NCBI GenBank assembly: GCA_030593565.1 | Contig: JAUVGW010000003.1 | Location: 1 to 46,473, forward strand | DNA from: Phycisphaerae bacterium | GTDB taxonomy: Bacteria > Planctomycetota > Phycisphaerae > UBA1845 > UTPLA1 | Reading direction: 5' to 3' | Length of the DNA stretch: 46,473 nucleotides | Shown: one piece after another, positions 33,030 to 35,101 of the stretch | How the letters are laid out: each line of letters opens with the position of its first letter | How positions within the stretch are numbered: position 1 is the stretch's first letter | Program-made: the position numbers and the translations under genes | Notes under the pieces: generated by a model | What the model was told of the DNA's origin: nothing | What the model saw: only the letters and a program-made list of their open reading frames with translations | Database searches by the model: none

Positions 33030-33280
33030 AGTAGGGAGTGGTATCCCTGCCATGTTCGATCACGGAGGCTCTGATTTTTTGAACCGTTTAGCCTGAATCT
33101 TTTGGGTGCGAGACGGCGAAGCTCTGGGGCGAACTCCGAAACCTCGGAGAGGTCCGATCTTCCCATGACGCTCCCACCTTGTTTGGTGGGGTTCAAAAAA
33201 TGGCTTCCGACCGGCATTGCGGTGGAGATGTCGCTCACTAGCAACCGAGACCCGTCCCGCGCAAGTGAGGCGGGTCTTCT
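33030..33280 (+). ncRNA. Candidate structured RNA, possibly 6S (SsrS)-like
   Basis: Upstream promoter-like boxes; long-range stem TTTTTTGAACC (33075-33085) / GGTTCAAAAAA (33190-33200) extended by GGAGGC/GCTTCC; apical hairpin CTCCGA-AACC-TCGGAG (33134-33149); hairpin CCCACC-TTGTTT-GGTGGG; terminator-like AGACCCG..CGGGTCT + TCTTTT at 33248-33283. Confidence 0.45.
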
Positions 33281-33288
33281 TTTGGAGG

Positions 33289-33373
33289 AAAAAAGGGGTC
33301 AGGCAACTTTATCTTGGCCGACCTCTCGGATAGAGCGATGACTCCGACGATAAAGTAGCCTGACCCCTTTTTT
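33289..33373 (+). repeat. 84-bp inverted-repeat element, copy A (A6GGGGTCAGGC..GCCTGACCCCT6)
   Basis: 25-bp terminal inverted repeats with one mismatch; reverse complement identical to copy B at 33931-34014. Confidence 0.9.
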
Positions 33374-33377
33374 GTTC

Positions 33378-33920
33378 TCAAGCCCCGAACCACGCGGGCG
33401 CGAAATGCACGGCCGCGTGCAGCAGGCCCAGTGTATACAGCCCCGCCACCACGTCATCCAGCACCACGCCCCAGCCGCCGGGCAGGCGTCGCTCGATCCA
33501 AGTGGCAGGCCAGATCTTCACGATATCGATGGCTCGCTCGACGAAGAACGCCGCCACCACGATCTGCCACGTCAGCGGCAGCGCGAACACGGCGATCAGG
33601 TAGCCCGGTATCTCGTCGATCACGTTCTTCGAGCTGTCCTTCTCACCGAGCACTTTGTCCGCGCGGTCGGCTATCCAGACCGACAGCAGCGTGAAGACGA
33701 CCACGAACACCGCGTATGCCGGCCAACCGATCTTCAGCCAACCGATCAGCGCGAGGTACAGCGGCACCCCCACCACCGCGACGGCCACCGTACCGGACGC
33801 GAACGGCACGAACCCCAAGTAGGCCAGGGAACCGCAGAACAGGAACAAGCGGTCCAAACCGCTACGTCCCTCGGTGGGCTGTGTCGGCTGCTCAGTCAAG
33901 ATGGGGTCTTCCCTCCGCAC
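33378..33920 (-). CDS. pgpA: Phosphatidylglycerophosphatase A
   Basis: LAYLGFVPFASGTVAVAVVGVPLYLALIG, KDSSKNVIDEIPGYLIAVFALP, AFFVERAIDIVKIWPATWIERRLPGGWGVVLDDVVAGLYTLGLLH match PgpA motifs. Confidence 0.88.
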   Translation of the reverse strand: MRREDPILTEQPTQPTEGRSGLDRLFLFCGSLAYLGFVPFASGTVAVAVVGVPLYLALIGWLKIGWPAYAVFVVVFTLLSVWIADRADKVLGEKDSSKNVIDEIPGYLIAVFALPLTWQIVVAAFFVERAIDIVKIWPATWIERRLPGGWGVVLDDVVAGLYTLGLLHAAVHFAPAWFGA

Positions 33921-33930
33921 GGAAAAAAGG

Positions 33931-34014
33931 AAAAAAGGGGTCAGGCTACTTTATCGTCGGAGTCATCGCTCTATCCGAGAGGTCGGCCAAGATAAAGTTG
34001 CCTGACCCCTTTTT
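33931..34014 (-). repeat. 84-bp inverted-repeat element, copy B
   Basis: Exact reverse complement of copy A over 84 bp. Confidence 0.9.
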
Positions 34015-34025
34015 CCCGCCGCAAG

Positions 34026-34916
34026 TTACTGTTGAAAATGCCGCGCCAGCAAAACGCCGTATCGCTCCACGGTCGCCGGCGAAACGTGATCGCGATTTGT
34101 CCAGATTCCCAGCGCCAGTGCGTCCCCGCACGAACACGTTGCCGGGGACTCCCCCGCCATCGACCGGAGCGTGGCCTTGATCAAGGCCACACAGTTCGTC
34201 GTCGCGGCCTCCACGTTGCCGATGATCTCGGCGAGCAAGGCCTGTTTGTCCTTCGACGGATCGTGGGGCCGCCAGCAGTCGTAGTCCGTCGGCAATGCAA
34301 CGAGCGCGTAGCACATCTCCGCCTCGCGCGCGAGTTTCGCTTCGGGCATGCACGTCATTCCAATCAAGTCCCCACCCCATGACCGGTGCATTCGACTCTC
34401 CGCGATCGTCGAAAACGCCGGGCCCTCCATGCAAACGTACGTTCCCCCATCGTGCACGGTCGTCTCGATCCCGTCGGCGGACGCCAACAAAGCCCGCCGC
34501 AAGGAGGGGCAGAACGGCTCGGCGAATTCCGCGTGGACGGCAAGGCCCGGCTCGTCGAAGAAGGTCGTGGGCCGCCGCGTCGTCTTGTCGATGATCTGGT
34601 CCACGAGCACCAGGTCTCGCGGCCGGAGCTCCTCGCGCAAGCTGCCGGTCGCCCCACTCGCGATAACATGGGTGACACCCAGTGCCTTCAGGGCGTATAT
34701 ATTGGCCCGATATGGGACGGCCGAGGGACAAAACACGTGCCCATCTCCGTGGCGAGCCAGGAAGGCGATCTCGACACCCTCCCATGTCGCGCGGATGATC
34801 GGCCCGCTGGGCTTGCCAAACGGCGTGGCGGCGTCATGTGAATCGCCTCTCACCTCGCCCAACAGCGTCTGTCCCAGCCCAGTGCCGCCGATGATGCCGA
34901 TAATCGGTTCCGCCAT
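34026..34916 (-). CDS. S-methyl-5'-thioadenosine phosphorylase / PNP-family phosphorylase
   Basis: IIGIIGGTGLGQTLLG, IRATWEGVEIAFLARHGDGHVFCPSAVPYRANIYALKALGVTHVIASGATGSLREELRPRDLVLVDQIIDKT, YVCMEGPAFSTIAESRMHRSWGGDLIGMTCMPEAKLAREAEMCYALVALPTDYD. Confidence 0.92.
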   Translation of the reverse strand: MAEPIIGIIGGTGLGQTLLGEVRGDSHDAATPFGKPSGPIIRATWEGVEIAFLARHGDGHVFCPSAVPYRANIYALKALGVTHVIASGATGSLREELRPRDLVLVDQIIDKTTRRPTTFFDEPGLAVHAEFAEPFCPSLRRALLASADGIETTVHDGGTYVCMEGPAFSTIAESRMHRSWGGDLIGMTCMPEAKLAREAEMCYALVALPTDYDCWRPHDPSKDKQALLAEIIGNVEAATTNCVALIKATLRSMAGESPATCSCGDALALGIWTNRDHVSPATVERYGVLLARHFQQ

Positions 34917-35101
34917 GTCGTGTCCCTCGAGCACCAAATCGCTGAATCCGCTGCAATGGTGAACGGTCGTTCTTCCGGTATCTTTGTTGTGGTGGCATCC
35001 TTGACACCTGCCGCCGCGATGTCAAGAACCGCCCGAGGGCGCGCCAACAATTCCCCCGTGTGGCATACCGGCAGCCGTGGCCCGGCATAGAATTAGGCAG
35101 G

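Follow-up and report, generated by a model that had tools for sequence, protein, structure and literature searches.

Identical inverted repeats flanking pgpA in a Phycisphaerae bacterium are probably TIR dimers mobilised by resident TIRYT transposases

Two identical inverted elements flank pgpA in the window, by which we mean the whole 46,473-nucleotide stretch of Phycisphaerae bacterium DNA that was analysed. Comparison with the rest of the genome makes it very probable that these elements, copies A and B, are non-autonomous dimers of terminal inverted repeats (TIRs), mobilised in trans by two resident TIRYT transposases, C63 and C79.

Copy A, a TIR-dimer (REPIN-like) element, occupies 33289–33373 on the plus strand and consists of an arm (33289–33313), a core (33314–33348) and a second arm (33349–33373). 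Copy B lies on the minus strand at 33931–34014, with arms at 33931–33955 and 33991–34014. The initial annotation described the two as exact reverse complements over 84 bp, and this is what we find: A is 85 bp and B is 84 bp long, and the reverse complement of B falls wholly within A with 84/84 identities, a match with a chance expectation of about 1e-42 in 46 kb. Its estimate of roughly 25 bp for the terminal inverted repeats is also accurate (25 bp, with one A.A mismatch in each copy). The element folds far more stably than shuffled sequences, both as RNA (-44.8 kcal/mol, z -6.9) and as DNA (z -8.2), and 0/200 shuffles matched it.

The gene between the two copies, pgpA (33378–33920, minus strand), encodes phosphatidylglycerophosphatase A (PF04608, E 7e-37); its product is 180 amino acids as called, with an uncertain start codon. 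Upstream of it is the gene for S-methyl-5'-thioadenosine phosphorylase (MTAP; 34026–34937, minus strand; TIGR01694 above cut-off). As originally placed, A ends 4 bp from the pgpA stop codon and B sits between the MTAP stop and the pgpA start. An extra terminal GGAAAAAAGG unit, which repeats the element end, adjoins copy B at 33921–33930 on the minus strand. Similar partial tandem duplications of the terminus (AAAAAAGGGG or AAAAAAGGGGTCA) are found beside L041, L047, L012 and L015, and may mark the insertion target or slippage.

Copies A and B are two members of a large family. A BLAST search of the whole assembly that holds the window (5.15 Mb in 461 contigs), a check that the initial annotation had proposed, returned at least 30 copies, complete or almost so, that are 82–100% identical to A in whichever orientation matched better. 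This and the following counts are minima: the repeat is cut by the ends of many contigs, and some BLAST candidates went unscored. The genome contains 53 matches to AAAGGGGTCAGGC and 51 exact matches to the inner arm, versus 0 for the reversed control in each case. All copies share a hairpin layout in which arms of about 25 bp surround a 35-bp core, and the arms are more conserved (~97%) than the core (84%). Among 23 intact copies the mean pairwise divergence is 13.6%, and the sole identical pair is A and B. By a rough gene call, 0/30 copies lie inside a called ORF, and a rough tally from the same call has them adjoining gene starts about as often as stops. The element had no match in Rfam, and a literature search for the arm sequences gave no relevant paper among the titles listed.

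The candidate partners of this family lie elsewhere in the genome. The initial annotation had stated that no transposase is present here, which holds for Y1 transposases on the contig of the window but not for the rest of the genome, where there are nine Y1_Tnp matches. A RAYT/Y1 gene with element sequence in its flanks, for which it suggested a search, does exist: the C63 gene is single-copy, encodes a protein of 225 amino acids and carries the GGGGTCAGGC arm of the element family on both sides. The flanking arms (GGGTCAGGCTACTTTTT) are inverted relative to each other; the upstream one reads GGGGTCAG, and the downstream copy, GGGTCAG, is one G short. The protein scores 82.7 bits against the NF047646 model for REP-associated tyrosine transposases (cut-off 80) and 61 bits against PF01797, and has a PDB sequence match to TnpArep (4er8). 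The two HUH histidines (HFH) and the tyrosine are invariant in 12 relatives. This unit (L061:1180-1935, G000:C63) lies, as read from the sequence, between an IF-3-like gene (translation initiation factor) and an apparent tRNA gene.

The second transposase, C79 (L063:1186-1872, G000:C79), is a homologue of REP-associated tyrosine transposases with about 50% identity to C63, although its score falls under the NCBIfam cut-off (67.4 versus 80). Its gene is also single-copy and is bracketed by GGGTCAGGCTTACTTAAT and GGGGGGCAGGCTTACTTTTT arms. These correspond to a second type of arm in the element family: some copies have the short arm GGGGTCAGGCTAC and others, 7 of the 30, the long arm GGGGGTCAGGCTTAC, and both arms of any copy are of the same type. 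The cores appear indifferent to this division, as the consensus cores of long-arm and short-arm copies are identical at 34/35 positions and the long-arm copies do not cluster by core (p 0.38), in a weak test on a short core. Given two transposases, each with one of the arm types, the most economical reading is a single core served by both. We tentatively propose, as a possibility that we would not rate as likely, that both TIRYTs use this single 35-bp core and that elements change from one transposase to the other by exchanging their two arms together, perhaps with one arm copied onto the other from a hairpin template.

Several features of the arms bear on such paired replacement. Within a copy, an arm matches its own partner at 97.6% of positions, compared to 96.6% across copies, which is a small difference. 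The consensus fold shows paired substitutions, from A-T to G-C in 7 copies and from T-A to A-T in 3. The five bases outside the compared arms match at 0.77 within copies versus 0.57 between copies, a difference reached in 0/5000 permutations. The matching of arms and outer bases within copies is what would be expected from hairpin-templated copying or correction.

Inverted flanks recur among homologues of these transposases, whose nearest named relatives make a planctomycete the most likely host of the element family. They score well above shuffles at 27/32 homologous transposase loci across phyla (Planctomycetota, Nitrospirota, Methylomirabilota, Proteobacteria and others), and they are found at 20/27 loci in relatives. 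The flanking repeats of the homologues mostly read AAAGGGGACATTCTACTTTT or GGGGACAGGCTAC, and the distance from the upstream repeat to the gene is usually about 50–60 bp. At the flanks of more distant transposases GGTCAGG is mostly absent, and GGGGACA-type arms occur there instead. The near-constant distance of AAAGGGGACATTCTACTTTT/GGGGACAGGCTAC repeats from transposases recurs in many phyla (L107-L129; relatives L205-L215); the motif itself was not found by sequence in the literature searched.

Against mobilisation by these transposases, besides the low C79 score and the small margin in arm matching given above, stand the following points. First, no derivation of the 35-bp core from the C63 or C79 gene is detectable. 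Second, amplification is seen only here though the transposases are common: homologues are present in 88/101 relatives, whereas, among about 500 genomes searched, this one alone has an amplified family with this arm pattern, and three others have a single dimer each. As far as one arm pattern can tell, the amplified family is a lineage-specific expansion. A separate gene-free solo dimer at L265:1425-1530 (G000:C34) has a spacer unlike that of the main family; at the right end it matches 35 nt of the C63 unit, and at the left end it contains TTGACGAGCA, as does that unit. It is apparently an internal-deletion derivative that shares the TIRtron end sequence, and as such would show how a gene-free dimer can arise.

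Mobilisation in trans, our preferred reading, suggests the following mechanism. Cleavage of single-stranded REP DNA at CT dinucleotides is established for TnpAREP, the HUH-tyrosine enzyme of E. coli (PMC8266576), and RAYTs are believed to move REPINs in trans (PMC3116915). In the same way, the TIRYTs would move TIR dimers in trans: as in IS200/IS605 and with TnpAREP, the HUH-tyrosine enzyme would recognise the arm pair while the DNA is single-stranded, cleave near the A/T-tract ends and join the copy elsewhere without target duplication. A single-strand HUH mechanism fits because target duplications are absent; no direct repeats abutting the copy ends were detected (p 0.93). The same result rules out the target duplication of a DDE enzyme.

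The site itself points to insertion into a pre-existing gene pair. In eight other genomes of the same family MTAP is followed by pgpA in the same order and orientation, and all eight are without the elements at this site; genomes of this taxonomic family lack the element. The two genes overlap by 4 bp in five of the eight relatives, and the remaining ones have a junction of a few bases or more; in the window, an 84-bp element sits at this junction. Because eight relatives keep the MTAP-pgpA pair, five of them with the 4-bp overlap, B was inserted at a junction within an operon, and A directly behind pgpA. Several relatives also have a short GC hairpin downstream of pgpA, and a similar one in the window at 33248–33284 (no strand assigned) reads AGACCCG...CGGGTCT with a TTCTTTT tail. 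Copy A lies between this hairpin and the pgpA stop codon. Since relatives have similar hairpins there, it is probably the older 3' end structure, beside which A inserted. The elements would be found at these two places because non-coding sites are tolerated, and any effect on pgpA expression would be secondary.

These comparisons indicate that pgpA is a bystander, a resident gene and not cargo. The initial annotation had raised a one-gene cassette or an inversion of pgpA, an idea in whose favour the gene has 84-bp inverted repeats on either side, and had suggested looking for an inverted pgpA in related genomes. The orientation is in fact the same in all eight relatives, there is no link to a recombinase, pgpA is resident in a conserved pair, and the other listed copies are not in close pairs around a gene. 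We therefore regard phase variation or a cassette as highly improbable, and, given the conserved MTAP-pgpA order, reject pgpA as cargo or as an invertible gene.

A further point is the perfect identity of A and B. Both copies read AACTTT at a place where TACTTT, TACATT, TACTTA, TGCTTT or TGCCTT is found in the other aligned copies; one of the two is therefore either a copy of the other or has undergone conversion by it. The shared private substitution and the 84/84 identity support the earlier proposal of recent duplication, gene conversion or mobility. A local jump could have produced B from A or A from B, or one copy could have converted the other. Gene conversion between two older independent insertions, a sub-question within the mobile-element reading, is a real contender to which we give somewhat less than an even chance. 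Inverted repeats at a distance of 557 bp lend themselves well to conversion or template switching, and A and B are not alike in their ends and outer flanks. That two copies lie so close together is no more than moderately surprising, as about 0.1–0.4 pairs within 642 bp would be expected by chance for 30–60 copies, and conversion leaves the family as a whole unexplained. An assembly artefact is highly improbable: although the assembly is in 461 contigs, many of which break off within a repeat of this family, unique pgpA sequence stands between A and B, the gene order is conserved in relatives, and the outer flanks are not the same.

An unlikely alternative to mobilisation is that the elements are mainly transcription terminators or RNA hairpins, kept around pgpA for that role. 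The 25-bp stem with A-run and T-run ends has a strong predicted RNA fold, A lies 4 bp after pgpA and all copies lie between genes. Bidirectional terminator activity of A and B is structurally plausible. However, a hairpin-forming stretch like that of the relatives is already present downstream of pgpA, and B sits at an operon junction where, in five of eight relatives, the two genes share 4 bp, which is an odd place for a useful terminator. About as many copies are beside starts as beside stops, by a rough tally, and the sites are not common to relatives, which argues for spread rather than conserved function. A terminator scan, restricted to loops of 3–8, did not report the copies.

Placing mobilised TIR dimers among known systems, the closest match is to TIRtrons, which are RAYT-like genes with long flanking repeats, some sharing GGGGWSAS at a roughly constant distance, and whose TIR families are moderately abundant and often arranged as dimers or clusters (Di Nocera et al., 2013, PMC3733652). 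The present system fits this description, judging from its Y1 HUH transposase with a RAYT signature, its flanking inverted repeats with GGGGWSAS (here the upstream C63 arm), the near-constant distance of about 55 bp to the upstream repeat and the dispersed TIR copies that occur as dimers (at least 30 here). It differs in that all full copies have a conserved 35-bp core with two arm types on it. Most TIRtrons were assigned to TnpAREP subclass 2.1, in which no REP-like sequences were found (Quentin et al., 2018, PMC6006769); whereas that survey had no REP-like sequences near the genes, we find dimers with matching arms. The motifs of subclass 2.1 (RAYT group 1) are NH[YF]H or NHVH, W[EQ], and YIELNP or Y[IV]HLNP, and those of C63 (NHFH, WQ, YIERNP) are close to, but not identical with, the entries in Table 1 of that study (PMC6006769). 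The C-terminal HTH of subclass 2.1 is not recognisable at the Pfam level, even at E up to 10, although a conserved C-terminal tail is present; the system may belong to that subclass.

REPINs (Bertels and Rainey, 2011, PMC3116915) resemble these elements as intergenic, dispersed inverted repeat pairs with a spacer and a hairpin, served by a cognate single-copy RAYT. However, the REPIN arm is itself a hairpin with a GTAG foot, whereas the arm AAAAAAGGGGTCAGGCTACTTTATC has no internal hairpin and the only strong hairpin is the whole dimer. The E. coli system with GTAG-tagged REPs (PMC8266576) shares a related catalytic domain (PDB 4er8) and a GTAG in the arm, but here the GTAG pairs with the opposite arm inside the stem and is not at the unpaired foot of a small hairpin. 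A canonical REP is thus ruled out, and the REP/RAYT likeness noted initially was right in kind, given the flanks of the C63 gene, but belongs to the TIRYT branch rather than to GTAG-tagged REPs. MITEs of classical DDE transposons are likewise short, non-coding and bounded by terminal inverted repeats, but here no target site duplication was detected and the partner is a Y1 enzyme.

The elements are well explained by a TIRYT system with its TIR dimers, of a kind already known, and the two-transposase arrangement is unusually clear. The TIRYTs form a large group related to RAYTs, whose passengers have so far only been inferred to move. The 30 or more dimers of this genome, together with two candidate transposases and an arm type that matches each, make arm specificity and switching directly testable.

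A second multi-copy element, with the terminus GAATGCCATTAAGTTAAG, is associated with the repeat arms. All 24 of its detected ends abut an arm (L070-L093; e.g., G000:C21:18615 and C422:107), which reads GGGTCAGGCTAC... or TAGCCTGACCCC..., a pattern that would fit an 11-bp target duplication, GGGTCAGGCTA. In its termini and the length of this duplication it resembles IS4, and no complete copy with its transposase gene was seen. This IS4-like element explains many of the contig breaks. Insertion sequences that target REPs are known, including the IS4-family member ISRm22 (PMC1525189).
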